Origin: Candidatus Tepidiaquacellales bacterium OLB4/UTCHB1
GTDB lineage: Bacteria > Bacteroidota > Ignavibacteria > Tepidaquicellales > Tepidaquicellaceae
Direction of reading: 5' to 3'
Assembly: GCA_002050165.1 (NCBI GenBank)
Contig: MWSW01000012.1
Location: forward strand, 310,001-374,000
Length of the DNA: 64,000 nucleotides
Shown here: positions 41,140 through 64,000 of the stretch, piece after piece
Layout of the letters: each line of letters starts with the position of its first letter
Numbering within the stretch: position 1 is the stretch's first letter
The notes under the pieces: generated by a model
Databases searched by the model: none
Told to the model about the DNA's origin: nothing
Seen by the model: the letters and a program-made list of their open reading frames with translations, nothing else
Position numbers and translations under genes: made by a program

Positions 41140-43112
41140 AAATCGAATTTCTCCGGTACGCCGATTTCAACGTAACTGCCAAGTTCAAAGTCGGCGGACG
41201 AATTACCGTTGAGGTCGTACTGCACAAGTTTATACTCGTACCTGCCGGTAGTCAGATTTTTATCGGTAAACGAATACGAAGTAACAGTGTTTGTCGTTCC
41301 CGCGCCTTTGACCACACCGACCTTTGTCCATTCGGCATCCCCGACAGCGTGAACCCTTCGCAATACTTCAAACCTGTCGTTGTTCTCCTCCCAGGTAGTC
41401 TGCCAGCTGAGCGTTACATTGTTCCTGTCGGTCACCGCCGTGAAGTTGGTTATATCCACATCGAGCGGACCTTCAAACTGGAGTGTTGTACCTGTACCAA
41501 CGTTGGGATTTCTGGTATCTACAGTTCCGTTCCATACCCCATCTTCATCGGAATTAAATTTTACAAAATCGCCGGGTGCCTCAGGTAGGGCGAATACTTC
41601 CCTTTCCTCGAGCCTCCTCACACCTGAATCGAGGTCGTTTGGTATTATCAGGCCCCAATAGTAATCATTAGTATCAACGTTATTGCGCCAACCTGCAAGA
41701 TAATCGGTTACTGCGGTTAGGTTTAAGCCATCGCTTTCAATAACTCCACTCGATAGCGGTCGGTTGCTACCATCTACTTTTGAATAAGCAAGAACAATAT
41801 TACCGGGCGCGCCGGCGGCGCCGTAATATGCCGAATTACCCCAGAAAAATGAACATTGTTCCGAATTACCGGAGGTCGTACCGTAATCCAGAACTGTAAC
41901 CGGTGTAGTCAAAGTATGTCTGCTGTCAATTGAGCTGCCGCCCGCACCGTCATTGAGCAATATGCGCATATATACGTCTTCATTTTGATCAAACGTTGTA
42001 TCACTATTCTGTTCAAGTATAAACCATCCGGAATAAGACCCGCTCGCATCTGTTGTAAACTGAAAATAGTTCGAACTCATATCCACACTGGTTTTTCTTT
42101 CAAATTTTTGGGTTGAGTGGTTCGGTATTATATTCCCCCCTGCACCATCGTTGTCCTGGTCGCGCTCATTTACCCCTTTCACATAGTACCGGTAAGTGGT
42201 GCTCGCATCAAGGTGGCTTAAGGTCGCAAAGAACGGGGTCATCATACGGTTTGTACCCGTCGTCATGAATTGCGGCAAGATGCTTGCTGAAAATGTGCCC
42301 AGCGGATTATCGGCTATCTCGTTAGTGTAATATATCTCATCCACAAAGAAATGCGCCTCATTACCCGTACTGCTTGCACCATATATCATAAACGAATTAA
42401 TATTGGTATCATTCGGTAATTCTGCCTTATCAAGTATTATAGGATTGTCGTATTGATGATTAACAAATAACATTGTTTTGTTGGGCTCAATTATCCGCCT
42501 GCCATAGAAATTAAAAGTATCATTTGCAGTCGAATTATTGCAATAAATATGGATAACATCATCGTTCCCCTGATAAATCGGACCCGGTATCGTGCCAGAC
42601 CAGATGTTGCTATCGCGATTTACTATCTGGACTGTATCGTCAGAAAACGTTATTTTCAACCCCAAAAAAGTTTGAGAACCTTGAAAACCGTTATTATCCG
42701 AGAATCTAGTTCCGTTGCCGGTAATGATGTAGAATTCACCGCTATTGGCAGAATCGCCTGCGAGGGTTTGAGAACCAAAGCCAATTCTAAATCGCATAGA
42801 GAAGGATTTACCTCCGGTAAATTCATAAATGCTGAACTTATTGACAGATGTACCGATAGGCGCCTGAATTCTCAATTCAGAACCACCGTTTCCGGAATAC
42901 AAATAACCCGGGTTCATTAAATCAAACCTGCCAGCACCGCTTCCTACCCTCACCCTCGCCGTACCGGAAGGTGGTGTTGGCAGAAAAGTTGTAGATATAC
43001 CTGATTTCAATGAATCTACTGCGGTGCCGAAGTCATAATACCACGGTTGGCTGAACGCATCAACCGAACAGAGAATAAACAGAATGCTAAAAAGAGTAAT
43101 TGTTTTTTTCAT
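40890..43112 (-). CDS. T9SS-secreted protein, unknown function
   Basis: 740 aa. Signal peptide (TITLFSILFILCSVDAFSQ, cleavage near res 21), an N-terminal jelly-roll-like region (WYYDFGTAVDSLKSGIS to about res 270), a middle part with DRDNGAGGN-type acidic loops, a fibronectin-like segment (NVTLSWQTTWEENNDRF) and the T9SS type A sorting domain (NYPNPFNPTTKIDFQIP to KRMVLIK). No enzyme motif is seen. The last 83 codons are almost the same as those of the 2073-aa protein. Confidence 0.86.
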   Translation of the reverse strand: MKKTITLFSILFILCSVDAFSQPWYYDFGTAVDSLKSGISTTFLPTPPSGTARVRVGSGAGRFDLMNPGYLYSGNGGSELRIQAPIGTSVNKFSIYEFTGGKSFSMRFRIGFGSQTLAGDSANSGEFYIITGNGTRFSDNNGFQGSQTFLGLKITFSDDTVQIVNRDSNIWSGTIPGPIYQGNDDVIHIYCNNSTANDTFNFYGRRIIEPNKTMLFVNHQYDNPIILDKAELPNDTNINSFMIYGASSTGNEAHFFVDEIYYTNEIADNPLGTFSASILPQFMTTGTNRMMTPFFATLSHLDASTTYRYYVKGVNERDQDNDGAGGNIIPNHSTQKFERKTSVDMSSNYFQFTTDASGSYSGWFILEQNSDTTFDQNEDVYMRILLNDGAGGSSIDSRHTLTTPVTVLDYGTTSGNSEQCSFFWGNSAYYGAAGAPGNIVLAYSKVDGSNRPLSSGVIESDGLNLTAVTDYLAGWRNNVDTNDYYWGLIIPNDLDSGVRRLEEREVFALPEAPGDFVKFNSDEDGVWNGTVDTRNPNVGTGTTLQFEGPLDVDITNFTAVTDRNNVTLSWQTTWEENNDRFEVLRRVHAVGDAEWTKVGVVKGAGTTNTVTSYSFTDKNLTTGRYEYKLVQYDLNGNSSADFELGSYVEIGVPEKFDLSQNYPNPFNPTTKIDFQIPVEGMTKLVIFDLSGREVATLVNETLMPGYYTYDFNASTLASGVYVYRLVSNDNIQTKRMVLIK

Positions 43113-47967: not shown

Positions 47968-48540
47968 TTAAAACTGATAGATTAGCCCGAGAGACATGCC
48001 GGGTAAAATATCCGTATTCCCCTGATAGATATCCCACCCGATAATAGCAGCTATATCAAATGATGCCTTAAACTTATCCGCTACTTTGTAATTGTTCTGC
48101 ATTCCAAGATTCGCGCAAAAGTTCGGTTTGTCGTAGAAATGATTGTAGAAGAACCCCGGTCCGGCGTGTATGTTTAAATCCCAATCCCTGTTTTTTCTTT
48201 CCGGGTTTAATGTATTATTTACATTTAAGATTGCCTCGCCGTAAACATAGTTGTAGTGATGTTTCTCATCGTCTGCTATCGTGTAAAAATAAAATCCCTT
48301 TAACCCAACCTGAAAACCAAGATTGTCAAAATACCACTTCCCTGCTGTAACATTAACTAATGGCGAATAATTGGAGCTGACAAAATCCTCATCCTTAATG
48401 CCGGACATTTGGGTACCGAAGCTAAGTGAAATGAAGTACGTTGGTTTGAGCCGGTCAGATGATGTTAGCAATTGAGCAAAGGTCTTGCTTATTGATAAAA
48501 AAAATAGCAGTAAACCTATTATGAGGTATTTCGATTTCAA
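47968..48540 (-). CDS. predicted small outer-membrane barrel
   Basis: 190 aa with a signal peptide (LIIGLLLFFLSISKTFAQ, cleavage near res 22). The mature protein alternates strands with aromatic ends (YFISLSFGTQMSG, YNYVYGEAILNVN, DLNIHAGPGFFYNHFYD) and ends SLGLIYQF with a terminal Phe, as expected for an eight-stranded barrel. Family not recognised. It is upstream of the GT-C-like gene on the same strand but 318 bases away. Confidence 0.7.
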   Translation of the reverse strand: MKSKYLIIGLLLFFLSISKTFAQLLTSSDRLKPTYFISLSFGTQMSGIKDEDFVSSNYSPLVNVTAGKWYFDNLGFQVGLKGFYFYTIADDEKHHYNYVYGEAILNVNNTLNPERKNRDWDLNIHAGPGFFYNHFYDKPNFCANLGMQNNYKVADKFKASFDIAAIIGWDIYQGNTDILPGMSLGLIYQF

Positions 48541-49027: not shown

Positions 49028-49044
49028 TTTTCTGTTTTTTCCAT
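49028..49044 (-). pseudogene. remnant of a third GxxExxY gene (first six codons)
   Basis: Read on the minus strand: ATGGAAAAAACAGAAAA, i.e. MEKTEN as in the two full copies, then the AGTAA repeat arm replaces the rest. It sits 454 bases from the start of the next full copy, exactly the array period. Confidence 0.7.
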
Positions 49045-49114
49045 GTATTTCTGCGCTCCTCTGCGAGATCTGCGTGATAAAATTTCTCGCTGAGCTTCGC
49101 AGAATTTCGCAGAT

Positions 49115-49498
49115 TTATAAATTGTTTACGATTCTTATAATTTCTTTATTAATGTCATCTGTGTTGAAGTTGACTAATAGTCCTAACTTTAAGTCGGTGA
49201 GCTTGAGATATGTAAGTAGTTGTTTGTGATGAACCGGTGCAAGTGCTTCTACAGATTTTATTTCTACAATAACTAAATCATCAACCAGTAAATCTAATCT
49301 AAAGCCTAATTCCATTATTTGGTCTTCGTATTTTACAGGTAAACCTACTTGGGTTTTTACTTTTCTGCCAAGTTTTATGAGTTCATAAGCGAGTGCTTTT
49401 TCATAAACTGATTCGAGTAAACCGGGACCGAGATTTTTGTAAACTTTAAAGATCGCACCACGAATATCATAGGATATTTTATTTTCTGTTTTCTCCAT
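49115..49498 (-). CDS. GxxExxY protein, copy 1
   Basis: 127 aa. GPGLLESVYEKALAYEL is the family's name motif (GLLESVY), followed by GFRLDLLVDDLVIVEIKSVEAL, a beta-strand core with D, E and K resembling the PDDEXK nuclease fold. The protein is identical to copy 2. Members are frequent in Bacteroidota and in other genomes with many short repeats; their job is not known, and nuclease activity is only suggested. Leader repeats lie on both sides. Confidence 0.88.
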   Translation of the reverse strand: MEKTENKISYDIRGAIFKVYKNLGPGLLESVYEKALAYELIKLGRKVKTQVGLPVKYEDQIMELGFRLDLLVDDLVIVEIKSVEALAPVHHKQLLTYLKLTDLKLGLLVNFNTDDINKEIIRIVNNL

Positions 49499-49568
49499 GT
49501 ATTTCTGCGCTCCTCTGCGAGATCTGCGTGATAAAATTTCTCGCTGAGCTTCGCAGAATTTCGCAGAT

Positions 49569-49952
49569 TTATAAATTGTTCACGATTCTTATAATTTCTT
49601 TATTAATGTCATCTGTGTTGAAGTTGACTAATAGTCCTAACTTTAAGTCGGTGAGCTTGAGATATGTAAGTAGTTGTTTGTGATGAACCGGTGCAAGTGC
49701 TTCTACAGATTTTATTTCTACAATAACTAAATCATCAACCAGTAAATCTAATCTAAAGCCTAGTTCCATTATTTGGTCTTCGTATTTTACAGGTAAACCT
49801 ACTTGGGTTTTAACTTTTCTGCCAAGTTTTATGAGTTCATAAGCGAGTGCTTTTTCATAAACTGATTCGAGTAAACCGGGACCGAGATTTTTGTAAACTT
49901 TAAAGATCGCACCACGAATATCATAGGATATTTTATTTTCTGTTTTCTCCAT
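49569..49952 (-). CDS. GxxExxY protein, copy 2
   Basis: 127 aa, the same protein as copy 1. The three base differences (near 49587, 49765 and 49810) are silent in Val, Leu and Val codons. It is the first unit of the array in transcription order and begins 66 bases after the stop of the amidotransferase gene upstream. Confidence 0.88.
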   Translation of the reverse strand: MEKTENKISYDIRGAIFKVYKNLGPGLLESVYEKALAYELIKLGRKVKTQVGLPVKYEDQIMELGFRLDLLVDDLVIVEIKSVEALAPVHHKQLLTYLKLTDLKLGLLVNFNTDDINKEIIRIVNNL

Positions 49953-50018
49953 GTATTTCTGCGCTCCTCTGCGAGATCTGCGTGATAAAATTTCTCGCTG
50001 AGCTTCGCGGAATATAGA

Positions 50019-52058
50019 TTAATACAGTTTTGGGATTTGATTTATCCTTTTTATCACTGTCTCAAAATCTAATCCGACAATCTCCAGATACCAGCGCAAT
50101 GATTCATAACGCGGATGATTTTCCTCGATAACTAATCGCAAAGCTTCATCCCGATTAAACATCCCTTCCCTTATTTGATTGCTCCGGAATGTATCATACT
50201 CGCTAAACCCTGCGACTGTACAATAAACATAATTGTAAAATCCTGCCGTCCCGTCTCCAATTCTCCACGTGGCATTTGTATCAATAGCTGTTTCCCATTT
50301 GTATTCATCAATAATAAGATTTTCAATTTCCCGTTCATCCCACTGATAGTAATCAAACATGTGGTAATAATCGCGCTTCTTTGCTAAGTAACGCGAAGCA
50401 AAAGAACCCAGCGTATCAAATATTGACTGGTTAAGATACGACGGACTCTTTAAAATATTTTTTCCGACATACCCGAAGAGCCTCATCTGATCGAAAACCG
50501 AAATCGAATAAATTCTCTTTTTATTAAACCTCAGTGGCAACCCGCAAAATCCAACTTTGAAATCAGTATTCTCCAACGGATTAATTCCCCAAATGTTAAG
50601 CTTAATGTCATTTTGCTTTTTGACCTTTTCTGTGTAATAAAAGAAAAACTTATCGCCCGCCATAAACAATGGAATCATTCCAAGCTCGGGGTTCTTCAGC
50701 CATGCAGAAATATTCTTCCTGATGTTCTCGCGTTTCCAGTGAATGTCAGCTGAGATGATAATATTTTCAACGCCCATTTTTCCTGTAACCCGCGCGATAT
50801 TCCGGCGCCCAAGGTCATTTACCATCCCCCAATCATAAGTAAAAGCAATCGGATTAAGTTTCAAAATATTTTTAGCAATATGTAAAACATAAGTGCTGTC
50901 GCGTCCACCGCTGTATGGAATGAGGCAATCCGGCTGACCGTCTTTTCGGCGGTATGGATTGACCAATTCCTGCAATTCTTCAATTGGTTTCGGCTGATTC
51001 TTTTTAACGTAGTTATTACATATATTACACACACCCTTTTCATCAAATTCAATAAATGGAAATGTTTCGGGTAAAACGCACTTTGTGCATCGCTTCAGTT
51101 TTGAAATTTTCTCTATATTGTATTCGAGCAGTTTCCTATCCGAATCCGCAGAAACAGCCGTTGTGAACTTACCGGGATCAACAACTGCATGCAACTGCTT
51201 GCCCGGAGGCACATAATTTGTTACCTGAATTTCATACTCTCCGCTCCGGTTATCTGCAAATGAAATATTTTTTTCATCGGTCAGTCCAAACTCATTCACT
51301 TTGAAATCTGTATAGCTTATAAGAAAACCCCTGCCGGCTGGAACCTGCCTTAAACTAAAATCCGTTGAAAAGAAATTCCGGTTTTTCTTAAGTAAATTAT
51401 TTAAGATGTTTCTTTCGGAACCGAAAACAAACAAGTCGCGATGATTAGTCATCACGTAAAGGGAGCCGTTATTTGTGAATACAGCAAATTCGTCACGGTC
51501 ATTAAACATGAACCCCGTTGATACCGTCCCGAATACAAGTGAATTTGCTTTATTAAACGCTTGAACCACTGCTGAACCTTCGTTCAGAAATTTCCTTATT
51601 AGAGCAAACAGAACTTCGGTATCAATTTCATATTCCCGCGTCAGGTTAATGTCGTTCTCCCAAAGTTCGTCATCGTTAACAATAATCCCATTGTGTACAC
51701 CGACAATTCCGCTTTTGATTACTGGCTGATTGTTTACAGGTTCAAGTTGCGTTCCGTTTGTAACGAGCCTCGCGTGTCCGAGGGCTGAAAATACACCTTT
51801 GACCAGTTCATCTGCGGATTTTTCCTCATTTATAATTTTATCTTTCAGACGGGCGTAGTCCTCCGTGCCTAAAAGTTCATCAATTGAAACAGGTCCCTTT
51901 AGAACCTCAATTCTCGTTTCAGATTCGAACCTGTATGCAAGACCTGATGAGTCCTTTCCCCTTACCTGCGAGAACTTCGCAAGGTCCTCAAGGATTTTTA
52001 CAAGGTTGCGTTTATTATACTTACCCTCTTTCGCTATTATGCCGAATATGCCGCACAC
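50019..52058 (-). CDS. fused class-II glutaminase / WbpG-type sugar amidotransferase
   Basis: 679 aa. Domain 1 (res 1-~260): Ntn glutaminase with nucleophile Cys2 (MCGIFGII), GHARLVTNG (94-102), HNGIIVN (122-128) and DTEVLF (146-151), the set found in GFAT and asparagine synthetase. Domain 2 (from ~320): four-Cys knuckle Cys324/327/344/347 (RCTKC and VCNIC), then the PP-loop ATPase motif SGGRDST (383-389) and a WbpG-like body. It likely uses glutamine ammonia to amidate an ATP-activated sugar carboxyl or amide. From memory, WbpS-type proteins making uronamides in O-antigen clusters have this build. No membrane segments. Paralogue at 57068. Confidence 0.82.
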   Translation of the reverse strand: MCGIFGIIAKEGKYNKRNLVKILEDLAKFSQVRGKDSSGLAYRFESETRIEVLKGPVSIDELLGTEDYARLKDKIINEEKSADELVKGVFSALGHARLVTNGTQLEPVNNQPVIKSGIVGVHNGIIVNDDELWENDINLTREYEIDTEVLFALIRKFLNEGSAVVQAFNKANSLVFGTVSTGFMFNDRDEFAVFTNNGSLYVMTNHRDLFVFGSERNILNNLLKKNRNFFSTDFSLRQVPAGRGFLISYTDFKVNEFGLTDEKNISFADNRSGEYEIQVTNYVPPGKQLHAVVDPGKFTTAVSADSDRKLLEYNIEKISKLKRCTKCVLPETFPFIEFDEKGVCNICNNYVKKNQPKPIEELQELVNPYRRKDGQPDCLIPYSGGRDSTYVLHIAKNILKLNPIAFTYDWGMVNDLGRRNIARVTGKMGVENIIISADIHWKRENIRKNISAWLKNPELGMIPLFMAGDKFFFYYTEKVKKQNDIKLNIWGINPLENTDFKVGFCGLPLRFNKKRIYSISVFDQMRLFGYVGKNILKSPSYLNQSIFDTLGSFASRYLAKKRDYYHMFDYYQWDEREIENLIIDEYKWETAIDTNATWRIGDGTAGFYNYVYCTVAGFSEYDTFRSNQIREGMFNRDEALRLVIEENHPRYESLRWYLEIVGLDFETVIKRINQIPKLY

Positions 52059-52261
52059 TTAATTCTAATCTTTTGAATTTAATTGTATTATAGCTGTCTG
52101 AAAGCACAATTTAATTATCATTGTTGTTTATAACTTTACATTAACTATTAAATCAATGTTAGCAGTTTCAGCCAACATTCACTCTCAAATTAACTTTTAA
52201 ACGGCGCTAAAAGTTTTGAATTCTGAAACCGTTTGTGATTTTGAAATTCAACAATCTCGAA

Positions 52262-53365
52262 TCATTTAAAGTCTTCAAAACAATCTGGATTTTCCTTTAC
52301 CACTTTCACGCTATCCGGATAATTCTCAAAGAGCCAAATCATAAACTTCGAGAGGTCAATGTGGTCTTTCAGAAAATTTTCCCTCTTCATTTGAAATTCA
52401 CTATCGAGATTCTGATTGTTCAACAACTCGTTTAAATAACCAATAATTTCCCGATCATTGCCCGGAAAAAATCCTTTCAATAAACCGTACTTATCCGATA
52501 ATATTTTATATTGTTCGAAATCAGCGTACCAATCGTCAATTTCAACTGCCGGTGTTCCCAAAACTGCAGCTTCAGCGCACATTGTTGTACTGTCAGATAT
52601 AAACAACCTTGAATAGTATATATAATGAGACATATTCATCTTGTCAATCGGGTAAACATATTTTTGCAAAGCCTCCGGCAGATCGCGTTGAGAATTTATT
52701 ATAACTTTTCCGTGTTCGCTGAGCAGGTTTACAATAGAAACCAGCAAGTCATCAACAAGCCCCCTTTTACCCACATCGTGAGTTGACGTCGCGGAGACAC
52801 ACCGTATCAGGAAATATTTTTTTGCAAGCGATTGAAGTTCGGGGCTCAATTTTGCAACATCGGGAGTAAAACTGTTCGGATGCAAGTGTGCTAGAGATTT
52901 TAGTCCGGGATAACCAATTTTCTTGTATTTGAAAAATCCCATATACGAAACTGACGGGCACAATACATAATTTGCTGTTGCAATCAATACAACAGATTCG
53001 GGAACAGCTTTTAAATCATCATCTGTAAAGAAAATAACCGGTGTACGTTTCAACCTTGCCGTCAGAGTTACCAGATCATCGGTAATTATTAAATCGTATT
53101 TTTTACCGCGGGTATATTTGAGCAACCTGTAAAGTGTGCGAAAAGAATTCACCGCAGCATTCAGATAAGTATGGAGATTAGGAATCCTTCGACCCTCGGG
53201 AAATAAATTGTGATAATCCCAACCTTCAGATTTCACAAGGTCCTCGACAATATCCTTCGAAATGATTGCTACATCAACCCTATGCCCTCGATTAAGCAAC
53301 TCATTTATTGTAATTCTAAACGCGTGAAATTTCGCAGGGTGAATGAAATAAAATAAGAAGCGCAT
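52262..53365 (-). CDS. DUF354-like GT-B family protein
   Basis: 367 aa. The N-terminus FLFYFIHPAKFHAFRITINELLNRGHRVDVAIIS is that of DUF354 proteins, which have the GT-B fold of UDP-GlcNAc 2-epimerase and glycosyltransferases; SRLFISDSTTMCAEAAVLGTPAVEIDDW is the C-terminal ligand loop. Its stop-to-start contact with the epimerase gene (no gap) and the polysaccharide context suggest a sugar transferase or epimerase-like step. Substrate unknown. Confidence 0.75.
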   Translation of the reverse strand: MRFLFYFIHPAKFHAFRITINELLNRGHRVDVAIISKDIVEDLVKSEGWDYHNLFPEGRRIPNLHTYLNAAVNSFRTLYRLLKYTRGKKYDLIITDDLVTLTARLKRTPVIFFTDDDLKAVPESVVLIATANYVLCPSVSYMGFFKYKKIGYPGLKSLAHLHPNSFTPDVAKLSPELQSLAKKYFLIRCVSATSTHDVGKRGLVDDLLVSIVNLLSEHGKVIINSQRDLPEALQKYVYPIDKMNMSHYIYYSRLFISDSTTMCAEAAVLGTPAVEIDDWYADFEQYKILSDKYGLLKGFFPGNDREIIGYLNELLNNQNLDSEFQMKRENFLKDHIDLSKFMIWLFENYPDSVKVVKENPDCFEDFK

Positions 53366-54421
53366 TTAGGATTTGCCTTTTAAAAATTCCTCAACGAGAT
53401 TAAACATCTTTAATGCAACATCTTCGCCGAAAATTGGGGGATGGTGTTCTGGAATCTGAAAATTTCTAATTTCTTCAATTGAGCCTTCATTAAAATTATC
53501 AAGTAACAAATTCCAGCCTGCTTCAACCGTCTCAACCCATTCGGTTTCGCTTCTGATAGTGATACAAGGTTTCTTTAAAATATAAGATTCTTTTTGAATA
53601 CCACCTGAATCTGTTATTACTTTCAGTGCGTTTTTTTGAAGGGCAACAAAATCAAAATAACTTAACGGTTCAATAAAAATAATGTTCCTGAATTGTTCGG
53701 ATCTATCTAAACTTTTCATCGTCCTGGGATGAATAGGAAATATAATTTTTTCATTAAGAAGGTCAATATGTTTAAGTATATATACTAATTTTCCTTTGTC
53801 ATCAACATTGTAAGGCCGATGTAAAGTTAATAAATAATATTCGTCAGACTTAATATTGAATTTTGAAAGAATGTCAGTGTTGCAGTGCAATTCCGCAAAT
53901 TTTAATGAATCATTCATAATATCACCGGTATTGAATGCTTTCGCAAGTAAACCTTCATTGTTTAGATTTCGCATCGCATTTTCCGTTGGAGCGAAAAGAA
54001 AATCTGAAACGTGATCTGCAACAGTTCGATTTAATTCTTCAGGCATAGACTTGTTAAAACTCCTTAATCCAGCTTCAATGTGTATTAATGGTATATGGAG
54101 TTTTGAAGATACTAATGCACCGGCGAGAGTTGAATTTGTATCACCAAAAATAATAACGAGATCCGGAATGTCGTTTATAATAATTCGTTCCAGTTCAATC
54201 ATCATTCTGCCAGTTTGATTTCCATGGTTTCCGCTGTTGATATTCAGGTTATAGTCAGGAACAGGAATTTCTAAGTCAATAAAAAAAAACTCTGACATCT
54301 CTTTATCGAAATGCTGACCGGTATGAATAATTATTTCATCAAATGAGCCTCTTATAAGTTTTGAAAGCGGCGCAAGCTTAATAAATTGAGGTCTGGCTCC
54401 GACTATAGATACAATTTTCAC
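53366..54421 (-). CDS. UDP-GlcNAc 2-epimerase family (WecB/WbpI type)
   Basis: 351 aa, non-hydrolysing GT-B epimerase. IVGARPQFIKLAPLSKLI, HTGQHFDKEMS, GDTNSTLAGALVSSKLHIPLIHIEAGLRSFN and MPEELNRTVADHVSD are diagnostic, and ITDSGGIQKESYILKKPC is the UDP-binding end. Members act on UDP-GlcNAc (WecB) or UDP-2,3-diacetamido-glucuronic acid (WbpI); the amidotransferase context favours the second, but sequence alone does not decide. It follows the WbpG-like gene and abuts DUF354. Confidence 0.87.
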   Translation of the reverse strand: MKIVSIVGARPQFIKLAPLSKLIRGSFDEIIIHTGQHFDKEMSEFFFIDLEIPVPDYNLNINSGNHGNQTGRMMIELERIIINDIPDLVIIFGDTNSTLAGALVSSKLHIPLIHIEAGLRSFNKSMPEELNRTVADHVSDFLFAPTENAMRNLNNEGLLAKAFNTGDIMNDSLKFAELHCNTDILSKFNIKSDEYYLLTLHRPYNVDDKGKLVYILKHIDLLNEKIIFPIHPRTMKSLDRSEQFRNIIFIEPLSYFDFVALQKNALKVITDSGGIQKESYILKKPCITIRSETEWVETVEAGWNLLLDNFNEGSIEEIRNFQIPEHHPPIFGEDVALKMFNLVEEFLKGKS

Positions 54422-54521
54422 TGTGGATATTAAATATATTATATAAAATCAACTTTTAACTTATAGTTTTGAAAGCATCACTTTTTCACGATATTTTAAA
54501 CTTTGAAAATTAAAATGTACA

Positions 54522-55685
54522 TTAACTGTTTATCTTCTTTTTCCTGACTTCTAGTTGTATAAAGTGAGCCGGTAAATGATGAACAAATAATTTTATTAAT
54601 GGTTTTGTAACCCAGTATAATTTTTCAATCAAGTTACTGTAAGACGGATAATCGTGAAAACTTTTATTCTCAGAATTCCAATAAATAGAAAATTCCTCCG
54701 GAGTCATATCAAGTTTTTTTATCGTGAATAGTTTATCATTCTCCATTTGTTTCAAGTCGTAAGGACTTTCTTTTATCAATTTTAATGCCTTTTCTCTTGT
54801 CAAATCACCACTGAGAATTTGAGCTGAAAAGGTTATAATTCTCTTATCCATTCCAAACTTTTGCGGCATCCAGTAAGCAATTGCAAATTTGGTGAATGCA
54901 TTTTCATGGTGATGTCCACCGTAATATTTCCAGTTATATTTTTCAATCAATAATTTCTGCGCTTCCGACTTTTTGTAATCTAAATAGAAAAACGGGTAAA
55001 TCATTTTTATCCCTTTGACATATCCAAGATATGCATTCTCAAAAATTGAAATGTTAGGGAATGTTTTCAGTTTTTTTGTACCGAATTTTTTCTGAATATA
55101 TTTTATTTGTTTCGAATCCCCATAAGTCCATTCATTTGGTTGGCTTCCTTCCGACCTGAAATCATGACCAATTAATATATATTTTATATTTTCACGGTTC
55201 GCAATTCTATATAGAACCGATTTAATTGCCTGATCAGTCGGGAAATCAATCCACGGTAAACCAGCTTTGATATATGATTTCTGAATATCTTTTATTTCTT
55301 CGTAATCTATTACATAAGTTTCAAGATCAATCTTCAGCGCGTTAGTAACATTTTTTATATTTTGTACACTTACATCTGAACTCCAACCATTATCTAATGT
55401 AACAGCTAAAGGTCTCAAGCCTTGCTTTATGGCTAAGTGCATTAAATATGAACTGTCAGTCCCACCACTAACTCCGATTATACAATCATATTTTTTATTT
55501 TTACCGGCAAGTTTAATCTCACTTAAATATTTATCCCAGTCATCCTTTCCTTTTTGACCACGAGGATATTGTTCAACGTATTTATCGAACATTTTTGCGT
55601 AATTTGAAACGCCGTTTTCATCAAACTCAATTCCAGGGATTGTTGAATCCCATAAACCCCTTTGACATATTTTATATTCACTCAT
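54522..55685 (-). CDS. WbpG-like N-acetyl sugar amidotransferase, knuckle lost
   Basis: 387 aa PP-loop protein of the WbpG/PseA type: GIEFDENGVSNYAKMFDKY at the start, PP-loop VSGGTDSSY (res 72-80), VTLDNGWSSDVSVQNI and GHDFRSEG. In typical members a CxxC...CxxC knuckle lies here; this one reads CQRG (Cys7, Gly10) and SNYA (Ser27, Ala30), so three of the four cysteines are missing. WbpG works with the glutaminase HisH2 and HisF2 to form an acetamidino group; no hisH or hisF is in the window, so ammonia must come from elsewhere. A subfamily without the knuckle may exist. Confidence 0.83.
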   Translation of the reverse strand: MSEYKICQRGLWDSTIPGIEFDENGVSNYAKMFDKYVEQYPRGQKGKDDWDKYLSEIKLAGKNKKYDCIIGVSGGTDSSYLMHLAIKQGLRPLAVTLDNGWSSDVSVQNIKNVTNALKIDLETYVIDYEEIKDIQKSYIKAGLPWIDFPTDQAIKSVLYRIANRENIKYILIGHDFRSEGSQPNEWTYGDSKQIKYIQKKFGTKKLKTFPNISIFENAYLGYVKGIKMIYPFFYLDYKKSEAQKLLIEKYNWKYYGGHHHENAFTKFAIAYWMPQKFGMDKRIITFSAQILSGDLTREKALKLIKESPYDLKQMENDKLFTIKKLDMTPEEFSIYWNSENKSFHDYPSYSNLIEKLYWVTKPLIKLFVHHLPAHFIQLEVRKKKINS

Positions 55686-55864
55686 CTATCTTTGATTTTT
55701 TTATAACTTTTTTGTAAACGGTTCTATAAAATCAATATCTTTGTGATATTATAGAATTTCAATGTTTAGTTAATAAAATACCTATATAGATCGATATTGT
55801 AACTTTTTAAAACTTTTGTATGTGAAATGTAAGACTGAAAGGCAAAATTATGTAAACTTATCCT

Positions 55865-56992
55865 TTAAACTCTAACAGTGACCAATTCATTTACCATATT
55901 TATTAATTCACTTGCATATTTTTCGTACGAATATTTTAAAGCAATTTTATCGCAATTACTTTTGTAATTTTGGATTTCTTCTACTGTTAACGACTTAATT
56001 TTTTTTGCCATTGAGGCAGGTTCAAAATTTTCGGCGACAATTCCAATGTTTTCTTTCATTACAATTTTTTCCATTTCAGTAGATGGTCCTATTGCGATAG
56101 CTAATCTACTTTGTATAAAATCAAAAAATTTATTTGGTAAAGCGAATTTTAAGTTTTCATTCGTCGGAGGTAAAATATATAAGCCTATATCGAAATTATT
56201 TAATGTTGATATAATTTCATCAAATGGTACGTGATCTTTGAATATAATGTTATTAATATGCCTACACATTTTTTTTAATTTTTTGAAATAAAAATAATTC
56301 AGTCGTGAAGATTGTAAAAAAAATGTAAGCTCATAATTATCCCCGAGCTCTTTTAAAACGTTGATCATTTTTTCTATTTTTCTTGTAGGTGTAACAATAC
56401 CGTGATGAACTAATTTAATTTTCTGGGGATTTACAAGTGTTGGTTTTATGTTATGGAATTTTGGCAAGTTTGTAACAACAATAGACTTAATTCCCCACTT
56501 TTCAAGATACCTTTTTGATATATTTTCGGAAACTGATATTGTAACTGATGGAATTTTAGAATACGTTTTCATAATGTATTCTCTAAATTTTTTATTTATT
56601 CTTCCAAGTGGTGTTCCGCTTTCTTCTTCCGGAAAATATTCATGAGCATCAAGTATTATTTTGGCATTATGGTCAATTTTCAATGCTAAAGGTATTGCAA
56701 GCTCATTATGAGCGATGATACAATCAAATCTGCAACCTTTAAGCTGATTAACTATTTCAATCCTTTCATCAGTCCAGAAATATTTTTCATAATTTTTCGT
56801 GAATAAGTATCTAAGGTCCAATGCTTCTTTTAAGATCGATCTTTTATTTAGTTTGTAAAACTTCTGCTCTTCATTGGACGCTTTTAATCCGATGCTGGTT
56901 ACTTCAAATTTCTCCTTTAAAATTTTTATTTGTTTTAATGGACGAGGATCACTGTTTAATTCTGTATATGCAATGATCAATACTTTATACAT
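55865..56992 (-). CDS. glycosyltransferase, GT-B family 4-like
   Basis: 375 aa. The start YKVLIIAYTELNSDPRPLKQI and FDCIIAHNELAIPLALKI mark the acceptor half; ILDAHEYFPEEESG is in the middle, and FDIGLYILPPTNENLKFALPNKFFDFIQSRLAIAIG is the donor-binding end with the acidic residue ENLK/FALPNKFFDF typical of family 4. It probably adds one sugar of the repeat unit on the cytoplasmic face. Donor and linkage unknown. No transmembrane segment. Confidence 0.82.
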   Translation of the reverse strand: MYKVLIIAYTELNSDPRPLKQIKILKEKFEVTSIGLKASNEEQKFYKLNKRSILKEALDLRYLFTKNYEKYFWTDERIEIVNQLKGCRFDCIIAHNELAIPLALKIDHNAKIILDAHEYFPEEESGTPLGRINKKFREYIMKTYSKIPSVTISVSENISKRYLEKWGIKSIVVTNLPKFHNIKPTLVNPQKIKLVHHGIVTPTRKIEKMINVLKELGDNYELTFFLQSSRLNYFYFKKLKKMCRHINNIIFKDHVPFDEIISTLNNFDIGLYILPPTNENLKFALPNKFFDFIQSRLAIAIGPSTEMEKIVMKENIGIVAENFEPASMAKKIKSLTVEEIQNYKSNCDKIALKYSYEKYASELINMVNELVTVRV

Positions 56993-57067
56993 TCATTATC
57001 AGGATTTGATTTTTTAATTCAGCGGTCGTTATTTTGTAAAATATTAAGTTTATTATAAAGATTTTAA

Positions 57068-58879
57068 TCAGTACATAGACGGAATTGCGTTGACTGTAGA
57101 AATAACCTCCTTATAATCGAGACCGACTGCGTCGAGATACCACCTGATATTCTGATATCTGGGCATGTTTTCATCGTTAACAATTTTCAGGGCTTCATCT
57201 CTCGAAATTTGTCCTTCCCGAATCTGGTTACTTCTGAATGTGTCGTGTTCCGTAAAACCCGCAATTTTATAATACAGATAATTATAGAAAGCGGCAGTTC
57301 CGTCTCCGATTCGCCATGTAGTATTTGTATCGGGGGCCAGTTCCCAGTCGTATTCTTTAAGAGTTTCGTCAATGACCTTCTCATCCCATCGCCAGAAATC
57401 ATAAATGTGGAAGTAATCCTTTTTCTCAGTAAAACTTCTGTAATATTCGCCTGAAATAGTATCCCAGAGCGACCGGTTGAAGTAACCCGGACTTTTCAGC
57501 ATTGCTTTCAGCCGCAGGTACTGATAGACGAGTTGTTTTGAAACGCCGTGCATATAAACCCGCTTCTCTTCAAAATCAGGTTTAACACCGAGGAAACCTG
57601 CTTTAAAGTGAGTAACTTCAAGTGGATTCACACCCCAGAGATTCAGATTTATATTGGTCTGACGTTTAATGGTTTCAACATGTCTGAAGAAATGTTTATC
57701 GCCCGCTGTGAAGATACTTATCATTCCGAGGTGCGGTGATTTCAGCCAAGCCCTCAGATTCAGTGCGATATTCCTGCGTTTCTTCGAGATGTCATCAGCG
57801 ACTATAATATTTTCAACGCCGAGAATCGAACACATTCTGCTGATGTTCCGCCTGCCCAGGTCTGTTACCATTCCCCAATCGTATGTATAAGTTATTGGCT
57901 TCATTTTGAGTTCGTTCACAATCAGGTGCAAACCATAACAGCTATCACGTCCGCCTGAAAAGGGTACGATGCAATCTGCACCGGTATTCCTGCGGTATGG
58001 TTCAACAAGTTTAAACAGCTCCTCTTTCGGTCGAGGGGTATTTCTGAGCTTGTAATTATGGCAGTAATTGCAAACACCTTCTGAATCGAAACTGATAAAT
58101 GGCATGGTTTCCGGTAACAGGCATTTTGTGCACCGCTTGAGCGAATGCTCCCGATGTATAAGCATCTTTTCTTCTTCTGCAAAATTCTTGAACGACGGTA
58201 TTAAGTTCTCCGTTCTTAGACGATTGTCATTTATTTTTATATCCTTTGAAACCGGAATATCTAAAATCAAGCCTTCGTCCATTACCTGAACAACACCTTC
58301 GCAACCTATTTCTTCAAGCGGATACCTCTCTGATGAAAAATATAAATCGCCTGATATTTTACCCGCGTACAGGCTACCGTTATTTGAAAAAAGCAAAAGT
58401 TTCCCATCCTTGGGAATTGTCAGAGCACAGGAAATAGTTCCTTTGCAAACTGATAAAATTTTTGCGGGCAAATCCGCTATCTTTCCGCCGCCTTTTATCT
58501 GGCTTATTGCAACGCCTATCATGGTTTCCGAATCAATCTGAAATTCGGGAGTTAAATTCACCGCATCCCAAACCTCCTGTTCATTTACTATTATACCGTT
58601 GTGTATCAAACATATCCCATCGCGAACAACGGGCTGATTATCAAATAGCCCATTCGTTATTAAACGGCTGTGACCCATTACAAATTTCGTGAACTTATTG
58701 TTCACATCCTTTAATAACTTGTTGATATCAAAGTCTGCCCTTCTGACTACGTAGCCATCACAATTGAAATAAAAAAGTCCGCTTGAGTCGCGTCCTCTCT
58801 GTCTTGCATGATTTGCGAGAAATTTTAAATGGCTTTTATTTATCTCCCCTTTGGCTATTATTCCGAATATACCGCACAT
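57068..58879 (-). CDS. second fused class-II glutaminase / WbpG-type sugar amidotransferase
   Basis: 603 aa, same architecture as 50019-52058 but with a shorter N-terminal domain. Glutaminase: Cys2 (MCGIFGII), GHSRLITNG (69-77), HNGIIVN (93-99), DSETM (116-120). Then the knuckle Cys250/253/270/273, PP-loop SGGRDSC (308-314) and DTFRSNQIREGQISRDEALKI near the end, all shared with the paralogue. Two intact copies in one cluster suggest two amidated sugars or two positions. All visible catalytic motifs are complete, so both should work. Confidence 0.82.
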   Translation of the reverse strand: MCGIFGIIAKGEINKSHLKFLANHARQRGRDSSGLFYFNCDGYVVRRADFDINKLLKDVNNKFTKFVMGHSRLITNGLFDNQPVVRDGICLIHNGIIVNEQEVWDAVNLTPEFQIDSETMIGVAISQIKGGGKIADLPAKILSVCKGTISCALTIPKDGKLLLFSNNGSLYAGKISGDLYFSSERYPLEEIGCEGVVQVMDEGLILDIPVSKDIKINDNRLRTENLIPSFKNFAEEEKMLIHREHSLKRCTKCLLPETMPFISFDSEGVCNYCHNYKLRNTPRPKEELFKLVEPYRRNTGADCIVPFSGGRDSCYGLHLIVNELKMKPITYTYDWGMVTDLGRRNISRMCSILGVENIIVADDISKKRRNIALNLRAWLKSPHLGMISIFTAGDKHFFRHVETIKRQTNINLNLWGVNPLEVTHFKAGFLGVKPDFEEKRVYMHGVSKQLVYQYLRLKAMLKSPGYFNRSLWDTISGEYYRSFTEKKDYFHIYDFWRWDEKVIDETLKEYDWELAPDTNTTWRIGDGTAAFYNYLYYKIAGFTEHDTFRSNQIREGQISRDEALKIVNDENMPRYQNIRWYLDAVGLDYKEVISTVNAIPSMY

Positions 58880-58969: not shown

Positions 58970-60064
58970 TTAATTGAAGTTTACCTTCTCCAAAAAACGT
59001 TTTTCAATTTTTTCCCAACAGAAGTTTTCCTTAAGATTCAGGGTGCAGTTCTCCCACATTTTTTTTGATACAATAGAAGTTACCGCTTCGCTGATTTGAG
59101 TTGATGAAACTTCACTTACGCAATTACCAATGCAATTACCTTCAACGATGGGTTTTAGACCTGGATAGTCGTTTGTAATGACCGACATACCTGCCTGTAT
59201 GTACTGAAAAATTTTATTAGGAGCACAGTAATAATTATTTAGATTTGTATTGTCATAAAAAGCAAAACCGATGTGATAAGCTGAAAGAAAATCGTAGATT
59301 TTTTCATCATTGATTGGTTCTCTAAACTTAACATTATTAATTTTTTTGTCAATTATAATATGTTTTAACTTTTTCTTATAACTTTCATCGCCGAACCCTA
59401 TAAACTCCAGAGCGACATTTTCAATACTTTTAAATGCGATTATAATTTCTTCAATACTGCGTCCTTCAGATAATCCACCAAAGTAAACAGCTTTTAATCC
59501 GTTAGGTTTTATTGTGGTGCTATCACTATTTAAATATGGATAATTTTCAATTACAATTTGATTAGACTTTCCGTTTATTACTCTATACTTTTCTTTAAAA
59601 TAATTCATTCTGTTCTGTTCTGCGTGGATTATCAGATTGCAAAATTGAATCGAAAACCTTTGAATGATATTCCAAACAATCTTTTTTATCCCGCTGTGTG
59701 TCTCAACAGAAAGTTCGTTTGAATCAAATACCAGTTTTGAACCTTTTAATAATTTCATTATCACGCCTGATAATAAAATTGATAACTCCCTGCAGATAAT
59801 CACATTGTATTTGTCCTTTACTTTGAATCCCAATGAAATGTTAAACCAAATAAGTGATAGAAAATTCAGCATCGGAGACTTTCCCGTTTTAATTCTGAAT
59901 TTTAATATTTCATACGGGTAATCATATTCCGGATTTCCGCTAAATAAACCGTTAGCCACAGTAACTTTGTACCCATTCTCAATAAGTGCATTGATTTGTC
60001 TTTTTGCTCTGGAGAGGTAATTAAAATTGCCGTGACAAATGTAGAGCACCGATTTAGCCGGCAA
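58970..60064 (-). CDS. glycosyltransferase, GT-B family 4-like
   Basis: 364 aa. SVLYICHGNFNYLSRAKRQINALIENGYKV opens the first Rossmann half; KAVYFGGLSEGRSIEEIIIAF starts the second, and HIGFAFYDNTNLNNYYCAPNKIFQYIQAGMSVI is the donor site with the conserved APNK motif. Likely one of the sugar-adding enzymes of the repeat unit. Its start overlaps the polymerase gene by 11 nt. Confidence 0.83.
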   Translation of the reverse strand: MPAKSVLYICHGNFNYLSRAKRQINALIENGYKVTVANGLFSGNPEYDYPYEILKFRIKTGKSPMLNFLSLIWFNISLGFKVKDKYNVIICRELSILLSGVIMKLLKGSKLVFDSNELSVETHSGIKKIVWNIIQRFSIQFCNLIIHAEQNRMNYFKEKYRVINGKSNQIVIENYPYLNSDSTTIKPNGLKAVYFGGLSEGRSIEEIIIAFKSIENVALEFIGFGDESYKKKLKHIIIDKKINNVKFREPINDEKIYDFLSAYHIGFAFYDNTNLNNYYCAPNKIFQYIQAGMSVITNDYPGLKPIVEGNCIGNCVSEVSSTQISEAVTSIVSKKMWENCTLNLKENFCWEKIEKRFLEKVNFN

Positions 60065-61277
60065 ATTGCCTCCGTTGCCTGTTTACGTCAATCAGAATAT
60101 TCATGTATAAATAAATCAATAAAAACCCCATATAGAAAAAATCGTTTAACCGGGCTGTTAAATTAATAAAAACAAATAGCGGCAATACAATTAAAAATAA
60201 ATTATATCCGGACATTTTTTTTATCTCAACTGATTTCTTATGGAACTGATATACAACCAAAAACCACAGAAACAAACCCACTAAACCTCCCTGAAAGAAC
60301 AAATCCCAGATACCGCTGTGATACCTTCTGATATTGCCGTAAAAGAATTCCACCATATAACTTGAGGCACCGGTGCCGGTTAATATGTTATGCTCACCGA
60401 GATACATTGTGAAAAAATCGAAAGGATCGGTTGTCCTGCCCGAAGCATCGGCGAGCATTCTCACCTGAAAGAAATCGGAATTAATAATCTCATCATAAAA
60501 CTGAACTGCAAGGAGCGCTACTAAAATCATCGAGAAAAAATACGTCGGGATTGCTGAACGCGATTTTATACCGACAAATGCTAAAAAAAAAATCATTATG
60601 ATCAACTGCGAAATTATAATGTACCTTGAGAAAGTGAGAAAACCTGCAATCAGAATCATCACAATTGGAATTACTTTTTTGAATTCTGAGAATTTCCTGA
60701 AATTGAAAAGTAGCGGGAACAGGACGAATATGAAAAAGAGCCCGGATTGATTTTGCATAAGCGAGTCGAAGATTGAACCGTTTCGCCAGAATCCCGAAAA
60801 ATCAACTTTACTTAACATGCTGTAACGGCCGGGCGGTACGAAAAGTGCCGGATTTATAAAATACTGAAGCAGGGATCCGGCAAGTGTAATTGCGACCATG
60901 ACGTACATAACCTTGTAAATCCTTTTCAAGTCACTCTCATTGTACTGCAAATTATCAATTAAAAAAATTACGAAAATGGAACTTGCATAAAGTGAAATGT
61001 CGGTTTTTACTATTTTATGAAAATTACCGGTAACAAACGCATTGACTAGAATAAACAAGTAGTATAAAATTAAAAAGATGAAGGTTTTGCTGAAATTTTT
61101 ATTTTTGAGGTTAATCATGAGATAAACGGATAATCCGGAAAGAATGAATAACCAGAGCATATCAGAATTAACAGCACCGATTGCAAATTGAAATTCGGGT
61201 GTGATAGGACCGAGCAACGGGAAGAGGAAGAGATAACCGTAAATTATTATTTTTTTAAAAGAGGAGTTATATTTCAA
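60054..61277 (-). CDS. O-antigen polymerase-type membrane protein
   Basis: 407 aa with about eleven membrane helices. The periplasmic loop near res 300-330 (EHNILTGTGASSYMVEFFYGN followed by YHSGIWDLFFQGGLVGLFLWF) has the pattern of Wzy/WaaL proteins, with His and an NIL/GxG turn. It lies within the cluster next to glycosyltransferases, so it is the better candidate for the repeat-unit polymerase; the plus-strand protein at 45089 would then be a ligase. No flippase gene is in the window. Confidence 0.8.
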   Translation of the reverse strand: MKYNSSFKKIIIYGYLFLFPLLGPITPEFQFAIGAVNSDMLWLFILSGLSVYLMINLKNKNFSKTFIFLILYYLFILVNAFVTGNFHKIVKTDISLYASSIFVIFLIDNLQYNESDLKRIYKVMYVMVAITLAGSLLQYFINPALFVPPGRYSMLSKVDFSGFWRNGSIFDSLMQNQSGLFFIFVLFPLLFNFRKFSEFKKVIPIVMILIAGFLTFSRYIIISQLIIMIFFLAFVGIKSRSAIPTYFFSMILVALLAVQFYDEIINSDFFQVRMLADASGRTTDPFDFFTMYLGEHNILTGTGASSYMVEFFYGNIRRYHSGIWDLFFQGGLVGLFLWFLVVYQFHKKSVEIKKMSGYNLFLIVLPLFVFINLTARLNDFFYMGFLLIYLYMNILIDVNRQRRQFAG

Positions 61278-61310: not shown

Positions 61311-62123
61311 TTAAATTTTCCGGAAGTATCTGCAGGCTCGGGTAGTATAATTAAGGAAGTGGCTTTCCTTCCGGGATTCAAAAAATTCATCAACTGCCTT
61401 CTTACATCCTTCATATAAACCGTAATCATCAAAAATTACAAATCCCCCGGGAACAACTTTATCGTATAAGTTCTCAATACATACTTTTGTTGAATCGTAC
61501 CAATCACCGTCAAGTCTCAGTATCGCGATAGATTTTATATTTTGCTTATCTGCGGGTACAGTGTTCTGGAACCATCCCTTGTGATAAAATACTTTGTCAG
61601 GCGGATATCCAATTACATTTTCTATTAAGTTTGAACACTCGGATAAATTTCCTGGTCCTCCGAAATCATCGTAAATGCCTTTAAGAGGTTTAAGCTCTCC
61701 TTTTGTCAATGCATCTTTCCCAAGTTTGTTCTTAACTTCGTTGATGGCGACCTGTCCGTCAACTTTCTCATCAGGTGCGCAAATTTCCTCAAACGCATCG
61801 AAAAGGTGCAAATTCCGTCTGCTCTCATTCCACTTCAGATTAGCCAACGCCATTAATCCGACAGCGCCGCCTTTCCATACTCCACACTCGACGAAATCGC
61901 CGGGAATTCCTGTTTTCTCTATGAATACAACCTGCTCATAAAGGGTTATTAAAGACATATACGGGAGCATTGTTTGCCGTCTGACAACATTTATTGCATC
62001 GCGGGCGTAATCTTCAAATTCAAAGCCCACCTTTTCACCGAGTTCTGAAAAAGCGGAACTCTTTGATTTTCGGCTAATATTGTAACCCAATTTGCCGAAT
62101 ATATTGGAGATAAGTGCCTTCAT
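61311..62123 (-). CDS. TylF/MycF-like sugar O-methyltransferase
   Basis: 270 aa. GDFVECGVWKGGAVGLMALANL is the SAM site of the TylF family, followed by LHLFDAFEEICAPDEKVDG and the metal-binding region ILRLDGDWYDSTKVCIENLYD, GGFVIFDDYGLYEGCKKAVDEF, with the Asp residues that hold Mg. Members methylate sugar hydroxyls. Here it probably caps or decorates the polysaccharide. Overlaps wecE by 4 nt. Confidence 0.87.
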   Translation of the reverse strand: MKALISNIFGKLGYNISRKSKSSAFSELGEKVGFEFEDYARDAINVVRRQTMLPYMSLITLYEQVVFIEKTGIPGDFVECGVWKGGAVGLMALANLKWNESRRNLHLFDAFEEICAPDEKVDGQVAINEVKNKLGKDALTKGELKPLKGIYDDFGGPGNLSECSNLIENVIGYPPDKVFYHKGWFQNTVPADKQNIKSIAILRLDGDWYDSTKVCIENLYDKVVPGGFVIFDDYGLYEGCKKAVDEFFESRKESHFLNYTTRACRYFRKI

Positions 62124-63253
62124 TTAAAATTTTTAATTAGATTAATAATTCGTGAAATTTCGTCGTCGGTTAATTCGAAGTAAAATGGTAACCTCAATAA
62201 AGTTTCTGAATATCTGTCTGCATTTGGGAGCTCAGCCCCGGAATACTGAAGTTTAAAAAATTCCGACTGGTGCAAGCTCAGGTAATGGAATACTGCGTAA
62301 ACTCCATTTTTTTTCAAATATGCTATCAAGCTGTCCCTTTGTTCAGGTTTACTACAAATCATGTAAAACATATGCCCGTTATTTGTGGCATATTCAGGAA
62401 TTACCGGAAGTTGTACATTATTTTCAAGTGCCCAATCTGTCAAGCCTTCGAAATAAATATTAAAAATTTCCTTTCTGCGATGTTGGATTCTTTCCAGATT
62501 TTCTAACTGAGCCCAAAGATATGCGGCAATTATTTCGGAAGGCAGAAACGAAGAACCGATATCAACCCAGCCGTATTTGTTAACTTCGCCTCTGAAAAAT
62601 TCTGCACGGTTAGTTCCTTTTTCCCAGATTATTTCTGAACGATTGATAAAATCTTTCTTATTAATTGCAAGCAAACCACCCTCACCTGAATTAACATTCT
62701 TTGTTTCGTGAAAGGAAAATGTCGCAAGATCACCAATACTTCCAAGTGGTTTCCCCTTGTAAAAAGAATCAACAGCATGAGCAGCATCCTCAATTACCAA
62801 TAAATTGTGTCTATGAGCAATCTTCATTATTTTATCCATATCACAGGCTACACCGGCGTAATGGACCGGTACAATTGCTTTCGTTTTCGGTGTAACCAAA
62901 CTTTCGATTTTATCTTCATCAATTCCGGGATGATCTGCCCTGCTATCGGCAAAAACTATCTTCGCGCCACGCGTTAAAAATGCAACAGCGGTTGAAACAA
63001 AAGTAAATGAGGGGATAATTACTTCATCTCCGTGTTTCATACCCGATAGCATTGCGCTCATTTCAAGCGCATCAGTGCAGGATGTGGTAAGCAGAGCCTT
63101 TTTGAAACCGTAGTTTCCTTCGAAATATTTCTGACATTTTTGTGTGAATATCCCATTACCAGAAATTTTCCCCGAATAAACTGCCTGATACATGTAATGC
63201 ATTTCTTTACCAGTCAGATAGGGCTTATTAAATGGGATGTTATATTCTTTCAT
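62120..63253 (-). CDS. wecE: dTDP-4-amino-4,6-dideoxygalactose transaminase
   Basis: 377-aa PLP aminotransferase converting dTDP-4-keto-6-deoxyglucose with glutamate to dTDP-Fuc4N. The match to E. coli WecE/RffA runs along the protein: IPFNKPYLTGKEMHYM, LLTTSCTDALEM, VHYAGVACDMDKIM, the Schiff-base Lys185 in FHETKN, and EKGTNRAEFFRGEVNKYGWVDIGSS. The stereochemistry (Fuc4N or Qui4N) rests on this resemblance. Upstream on the strand is the wecD-like acetyltransferase, the next step of the same pathway. Confidence 0.9.
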   Translation of the reverse strand: MKEYNIPFNKPYLTGKEMHYMYQAVYSGKISGNGIFTQKCQKYFEGNYGFKKALLTTSCTDALEMSAMLSGMKHGDEVIIPSFTFVSTAVAFLTRGAKIVFADSRADHPGIDEDKIESLVTPKTKAIVPVHYAGVACDMDKIMKIAHRHNLLVIEDAAHAVDSFYKGKPLGSIGDLATFSFHETKNVNSGEGGLLAINKKDFINRSEIIWEKGTNRAEFFRGEVNKYGWVDIGSSFLPSEIIAAYLWAQLENLERIQHRRKEIFNIYFEGLTDWALENNVQLPVIPEYATNNGHMFYMICSKPEQRDSLIAYLKKNGVYAVFHYLSLHQSEFFKLQYSGAELPNADRYSETLLRLPFYFELTDDEISRIINLIKNFK

Positions 63254-63339: not shown

Positions 63340-63487
63340 ACATATAACGTTCCTCTGATTGGCGATGCGGTGTAATTTTATTACAAAAGTTCAATAGAAT
63401 TCCAAATGTTGAACCTTGCTCAAATGTTTCATAGAAACAATTCAGCCACCATATTGCCAATCCGATGTAATGCGTAGTTATTTTTTC
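63340..63487. repeat. imperfect inverted repeat between wecD and wecE
   Basis: GATTGGC at 63357-63363 and GCCAATC at 63456-63462, with TAAC near 63344 matched by GTTA near 63477, form arms about 25 bases long around a ~90-base centre. No gene fits the 224-base interval. The outline resembles an integron attC site, but the end boxes do not fit GTTRRRY, so no such claim is made. Confidence 0.4.
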
Positions 63488-64000
63488 CAAATATGATAAA
63501 AGAATTCTACTGTTTCCACTTTGTAGCCACATCTTTCATATAGTCTGCACGCTGGATAATTGTCTCCTTGGGTGACAACTTGTATAGACTTATACCCTTT
63601 GTCTGAAAACCACTTTTCAGCACTTTCCATAAGTATTCTTCCATATCCATTTCCACGAAAGAGATAGTCAACTGCGATTATTCCAATATCTGCTCTATTA
63701 TTTTTTTCTCCTAATGTAACAAAGCCTTTTAAATCGGTTTTTTCTAATAATACGAGAACTTCTTTTGCAATTTTGTGATTTAATGAATTAATCATCCATA
63801 ATGAATACATTTCTTCATATTTCTCTTTACCTATTTTTTTGTCAACATTAAATCTGGAATATATACCACTTTGAATTGCCAGTTCAATCAACTTGTCCTT
63901 AAAAGGTGTGCTTACACTTGAATTAACTGAATGTATTGAATTGTGAAAAATCGAGGCGCTATTTATGTCTTTAACATAGGTGGTCTTTTTGTCTACTAAT
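63478..64000 (-). CDS. wecD: dTDP-4-amino-4,6-dideoxy sugar N-acetyltransferase, partial (WecD-like GNAT)
   Basis: Only the last ~174 codons are present; the frame is open to the right edge, so the TTG at 63891 is internal. GNAT core: VLVLLEKTDLKGFVTLGEKN, IIAVDYLFRGNGYGRILMESAEKW (acetyl-CoA loop RGNGYG), VVTQGDNYPACRLYERCGYKVE and FFYHIW at the end, as in WecD. It should acetylate the 4-amino group made by WecE, giving dTDP-Fuc4NAc. The separation from wecE is 224 bases. Confidence 0.85.
   Translation of the reverse strand, partial: LVDKKTTYVKDINSASIFHNSIHSVNSSVSTPFKDKLIELAIQSGIYSRFNVDKKIGKEKYEEMYSLWMINSLNHKIAKEVLVLLEKTDLKGFVTLGEKNNRADIGIIAVDYLFRGNGYGRILMESAEKWFSDKGYKSIQVVTQGDNYPACRLYERCGYKVETVEFFYHIWKK

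Follow-up and report, generated by a model that had tools for sequence, protein, structure and literature searches.

Class-II glutaminases fused to NASAT-type PP-loop domains in a polysaccharide cluster, candidate enzymes for acetamidino sugar formation

In amidotransferases of the family treated here, the glutaminase passes ammonia to a PP-loop domain, where ATP primes an oxygen for displacement. Acetamidino and uronamide groups alter the charge and antigenic character of surface sugars. According to PMC10607449, acetamidino groups are formed by WbpG and WbuX, two members of the N-acetyl sugar amidotransferases (NASATs). WbpS is a protein of the AsnB family, similar to TIGR03108 (PMC7468200). 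According to the initial annotation of the DNA studied here, WbpG-type enzymes usually pair with a separate class-I glutaminase. Most of the loci that we sampled agree: hisH and/or hisF lies directly beside the stand-alone NASAT gene in about 20 of 30 loci of 4 kb.

Two fused proteins in the window

We analysed a stretch of 64,000 nucleotides (the window) from Candidatus Tepidiaquacellales bacterium OLB4/UTCHB1. Two single-chain amidotransferases had been claimed in it, and both open reading frames are present on the minus strand, at the coordinates given for them. The polysaccharide cluster around them contains the following genes.

50019-52058, minus strand: class-II glutaminase plus NASAT, 679 aa (profile HMMs, identity comparison, tree)
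52262-53365, minus strand: DUF354-like glycosyltransferase, named by resemblance (no Pfam or NCBIfam match)
53366-54421, minus strand: WbpI/WecB-type non-hydrolysing NDP-HexNAc 2-epimerase (Pfam and NCBIfam profiles, identity to E. coli)
54522-55685, minus strand: stand-alone NASAT of the WbpG/WbuX family (TIGR03573, 223.5 bits, above cut-off; tree)
55865-56992, minus strand: GT4-type glycosyltransferase (weak Pfam match)
57068-58879, minus strand: 603 aa, class-II glutaminase (residues 1 to about 210) plus NASAT/WbpG-type PP-loop synthase (residues about 244 to 603) (HMMs, alignment, AlphaFold2)
58970-60064, minus strand: GT-B glycosyltransferase, directly upstream of the preceding fused gene (Pfam match)
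60054-61277, minus strand: Wzy-like polymerase (Wzy_C, below cut-off)
61311-62123, minus strand: TylF-type methyltransferase (Pfam match)
62120-63253, minus strand: WecE-type sugar aminotransferase (549.6 bits, cut-off 375)
63478-63891, minus strand: GNAT acetyltransferase (profile match)

Beyond the window, Wzx-, Wzc- and Wza-like genes, read by eye, continue the cluster. Homologues of the DUF354-like glycosyltransferase flank fused genes in loci L021, L087 and (by eye) L132.

Both fused proteins are an intact class-II (Ntn) glutaminase joined to a PP-loop domain of the WbpG/WbuX type (NASAT). They are 44% identical in a pairwise protein comparison. Profile HMMs, an AlphaFold2 model, active-site conservation in 75 members and the tree clade lead to this assignment. 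The Pfam families GATase_6 and GATase_7 match the N-terminal halves, with the 679-aa protein above both cut-offs and the 603-aa protein slightly below. TIGR03573 (WbuX, N-acetyl sugar amidotransferase) matches the C-terminal halves, at residues 322-654 of the 679-aa protein and 248-582 of the 603-aa protein. Both score 137 bits; the values recorded for the fused type, 137-142 bits over nearly the entire model, lie below the family cut-off of 203. Judged by sequence, the fused proteins are homologous to TIGR03573 members yet outside the curated subfamily.

Inspection of the pair reveals the motifs Cys2, GH(A/S)RL(V/I)TNG, HNGI, ID(T/S)E, CTKC...CNxC and SGGRDS. The start codon of the 679-aa protein is GTG, so its Cys directly follows the initiator Met. 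Among 75 homologues, the glutaminase residues Cys2, Arg72, His93-Asn94-Gly95, Asp116 and Glu118 are 100% conserved. The same is true of the knuckle cysteines C250, C253, C270 and C273 and of the PP-loop SGGRDS. The fused family thus presents the tetracysteine motif of NASAT/WbuX, CxxC...[GN]xCxxC. Outside these motifs, N345, G416, E421, Y534 and R560 are common to fused and stand-alone NASATs. Their sharing supports a true NASAT descent of the fused domain, despite the score below the cut-off.

The AlphaFold2 model of the 603-aa protein, built from 40 family members, has a mean pLDDT of 90.6 and a pTM of 0.90. Its residues 2-208 match the GlmS and PurF glutaminases (VIA-align, Z 22-24). Residues 244-603 match the NASAT 8WEX (Z 22.6, 317 residues aligned). 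Foldseek concurs. Likewise, a sequence search of the PDB leads from the C-terminal half to 8WEX, which is a Legionella NASAT, and from the N-terminal half to GlmS. The domain reading of the initial annotation, including the CxxC...CxxC knuckle, is therefore backed by HMMs, motifs, model and conservation. The HMM search and structure prediction that it proposed give a GlmS/PurF-like N-terminal half and a NASAT C-terminal half.

Database labels of the family are inconsistent: 'glucosamine 6-phosphate synthetase', which is the RefSeq name of the E. coli copies, stands beside 'hypothetical protein' and '7-cyano-7-deazaguanine synthase'. The N-terminal half is indeed homologous to the glutaminase of GlmS and AsnB. 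Nevertheless, the GlmS and AsnB models align to the glutaminase part alone in both proteins (GlmS to the first 220 residues or so), and TIGR01536 matches the same half only. Neither protein has a match to Asn_synthase (PF00733), TIGR03108 or SIS domains among the Pfam and NCBIfam profiles. The C-terminal half, which could have belonged to the AsnB or GFAT family, has the NASAT fold instead. A glucosamine-6-phosphate synthase or an asparagine synthetase is contradicted by this domain content, and we consider such an identity extremely improbable.

Other features lie next to the cluster. Two tandem copies of a 454-bp unit lie at 49028-50013, each with a gene for a 127-aa PDDEXK_3 (GxxExxY) protein. 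The two genes (49115-49498 and 49569-49952) encode identical proteins, and behind them the 78-nt flank appears for the third time. A related gene also adjoins a gene of the 679-aa type in L132. At 47968-48540 there is a secreted protein of 190 aa, possibly an outer-membrane barrel, with no Pfam match. Two other genomes encode homologues of it (L132:10763-11344 and L133:10163-10732; identity 57% and 49%) with the motif GIKDEDF(V/I)SSNYSPL, each immediately downstream of a gene of the 679-aa type, which makes it a conserved neighbour. Three large secreted proteins at 31722-43112 have a C-terminal domain like that of type IX secretion (SQNYPNPFNPTTKIDFQIPVEG...). The linking sugar of the P. gingivalis type IX secretion system is a product of the Wbp pathway, so these proteins may have a link to the polysaccharide cluster.

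Distribution of the fused family and its stand-alone relatives

A scan with one genome per species found 421 stretches that match the fused family. The best 80 of these 421 share 63-76% identity with the 603-aa protein. They come from Proteobacteria, Bacteroidetes, Planctomycetes, Leptospiraceae, Verrucomicrobia and others. Fused-type matches occur in only two of 299 drawn Pseudomonadota genomes, and these two include the centre genome; the family is thus scattered and rare per genome. By tblastn, no phage relatives were found. Plasmid relatives are few, with three near full length.

In the tree, the fused NASAT domains sampled all fall into a single clade (support 100/99), distant from WbpG. 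The 679-aa and 603-aa types are subclades of it, and the 679-aa protein of the window groups with the G124 and G132 copies. Two long stand-alone sequences (L137 and L138) are placed near the fused clade with weak support.

The window also holds the stand-alone WbpG-like protein that had been noticed before, at 54522-55685. It has lost three of its four zinc-knuckle cysteines, a feature that had gone unmentioned, and it lacks the tetracysteine motif. Two other NASATs (L013:13090-14244 and L087:5714-6886) form a cysteine-poor subclade with it, all with three of the four knuckle cysteines lost. Each of the three shares its locus with a NASAT, fused or stand-alone, whose knuckle is complete. The cysteine-poor NASAT may be a partner or a second-site enzyme.

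There is no hisH or hisF within the window. The sole HisH over the cut-off in this genome, together with the best HisF, lies at C8:460-461.6 kb; the fused genes are about 95 kb away. The order there is HisH/HisF, a NASAT, a DUF354-like glycosyltransferase and a second NASAT. The stand-alone NASAT of the window may use this single HisH/HisF pair. No HisF of the genome reaches the histidine-pathway cut-off, and the lone HisH over its cut-off sits in a sugar cluster; histidine biosynthesis may therefore be absent.

Among 80 loci with a fused gene, HisH is near it in 16 and a WbpS-like AsnB protein in 17. Given these co-occurrences, the fused enzyme does not merely stand in for HisH or WbpS. The fused gene shares its locus with WbpG-HisHF in 20/80 cases, with WbpS in 17/80 and with both in 2/80, counts that favour neither amidine nor amide.

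Link to the wbp pathway and the proposed reaction

A WbpD homologue (E<=1e-50) is present in 48 of 50 genomes that carry the fused gene and in 31 of 297 controls. The controls were the 299 drawn Pseudomonadota genomes, 33 of them with WbpD; two carriers among those 33 were set aside. Fisher's test gives p of about 4e-35, a value that ignores relatedness and compares carriers from more phyla than the control. The WbpD match lies within 25 kb of the fused gene in 44 of the 50 carriers, usually 5-20 kb upstream and in the same orientation, although a few of these neighbourhoods may be coincidental since contig identity was inferred from coordinates.

In two E. coli genomes the fused gene is part of the O-antigen cluster, which is flanked by galF and gnd. 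The cluster consists of WbpB-like, TviB/WbpA, WbpD-like and WbpE-like genes, Wzx, Wzy, a glycosyltransferase, a WecB/WbpI-like epimerase, the fused gene and a second glycosyltransferase. No other dedicated sugar pathway is found in these two clusters. They also hold no wbpG, hisH2 or hisF2; HisH and HisF are in the histidine operon only. The window epimerase is 47% identical to the one that adjoins the E. coli fused gene. As for the genome of the window, its WbpA-, WbpE-, WbpB- and WbpD-like genes form an operon at C2:71.6-78 kb, on a different contig from the window cluster.

The initial annotation proposed action on a polysaccharide sugar. The carrier statistics and the E. coli clusters support it and make the link specific to the diNAc-uronic-acid pathway of wbp. 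PP-loop enzymes are versatile, and one plasmid relative bears the label 7-cyano-7-deazaguanine synthase, so a QueC-like action on a nucleobase, a peptide or a lipid has been weighed. But the loci inspected closely, which could have pointed to non-sugar substrates, belong to glycan clusters that encode glycosyltransferases, Wzx/Wzy or sugar transferases. The very strong tie to the wbp pathway also speaks against it. We regard a non-sugar substrate as improbable.

We lean, with moderate confidence, towards the fused enzymes converting a UDP-2,3-diacetamido-hexuronic acid to its 3-acetamidino form without HisH/HisF. The Ntn domain, with its N-terminal Cys, would hydrolyse glutamine. Ammonia would then move within the chain from the glutaminase to the NASAT domain. 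There, the PP-loop and ATP would activate the N-acetyl group of the sugar, yielding AMP and PPi, and ammonia would displace the activated oxygen to leave an acetamidino group. The substrate is probably UDP-2,3-diacetamido-2,3-dideoxy-hexuronic acid, as GlcNAc3NAcA or as its WbpI epimer ManNAc3NAcA. Glycosyltransferases encoded nearby would then incorporate the product into a unit of an O-antigen or exopolysaccharide. One fused chain would do the work of WbpG, HisH2 and HisF2 in P. aeruginosa. By analogy with described enzymes, we infer the glutaminase activity, the in-chain ammonia transfer, the ATP chemistry, the exact substrate and the amidine rather than the uronamide. Several observations weigh against this reading: HisH or a WbpS-like protein accompanies the fused gene in some loci, the NASAT domain scores below the curated cut-off in a clade remote from WbpG, and the wbp operon of this genome is on another contig than the window cluster.

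The alternative that deserves most weight is a uronamide: the NASAT-fold synthase would attach the nitrogen to the carboxylate at C6 of the same diNAc-hexuronic acid, or of a different HexNAcA. WbpS converts the same wbp precursor to a uronamide in P. gingivalis (PMC7468200), and HexNAcA becomes HexNAcAN in H. pullorum (PMC6025236). A glutaminase and an ATP-dependent synthase in one protein is also the layout of WbpS, and the separate HisH of 16 loci could serve amidine formation. On the other hand, the characterised NASAT members that PMC10607449 names make acetamidino groups, and a WbpS-like protein already accompanies the fused gene in 17 of the 80 loci. An acetamidino product is favoured because such groups are attributed to WbpG and WbuX, and because the uronamide-forming WbpS is AsnB-type. 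We hold the uronamide to be unlikely, at about one chance among a few. Somewhat more doubtful still is a broader view, a NASAT-fold synthase wired to a class-II glutaminase for a reaction other than acetamidine formation (a uronamide on the diNAc-hexuronic acid, for example), in which the two fused paralogues and the stand-alone NASAT with its reduced knuckle would each add a different nitrogen to one glycan. The idea of several amidated sugars in the window glycan is hypothetical, and the cluster with its three NASAT proteins is compatible with it.

Comparison with known systems

No paper on the fused enzyme was found in the full-text literature searched, which lies largely outside subscription journals. 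Nor did we find biochemistry or a published glycan structure for any carrier; the E. coli O-antigen papers that the search gave name acetimidoyl sugars in their reference lists only. The architecture of class-II glutaminase plus NASAT is apparently undescribed in the searchable literature. It is a new combination of known domains, in which the job of two or three proteins is made self-contained. If the acetamidino reading is true, in vitro work and glycan engineering could use one enzyme in place of three proteins. A function would then be assigned to a family whose present labels are glucosamine-6-phosphate synthetase, QueC or hypothetical, and O-antigen structures could be better predicted from sequence. 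The layout of class-II glutaminase plus PP-loop synthase recurs here with a different synthase lineage.

AsnB, GlmS/GFAT and PurF share with the fused proteins the N-terminal Ntn glutaminase and its N-terminal Cys. However, their synthase halves are Asn_synthase, SIS and phosphoribosyltransferase domains. WbpS, WbqG and PGN_1234 (AsnB family, TIGR03108-like) are also single chains with a class-II glutaminase. They form uronamides and act on HexNAc-uronic acids, including the sugar of the Wbp pathway. Their synthase half belongs to the asparagine-synthetase family, whereas that of the fused proteins is a NASAT. The earlier comparison with WbpS thus stands for the glutaminase half and fails for the AsnB-type synthase half (PMC7468200), which rules out WbpS as a direct homologue.

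WbpG, WbuX and the Legionella enzyme LpNASAT 8WEX (TIGR03573) resemble the fused C-terminal half in the PP-loop, the zinc knuckle, the N/G/E/Y/R residues, the fold and the polysaccharide context. They differ in being stand-alone and mostly beside hisH/hisF, while the fused proteins form a separate clade below the curated cut-off. Finally, WbpG with HisH2 and HisF2 of P. aeruginosa O5 (the ManNAc3NAmA pathway) likely shares with the fused enzymes the precursor pathway and the type of product. Unlike the fused chain, it keeps its class-I glutaminase and its HisF-like subunit as separate proteins.
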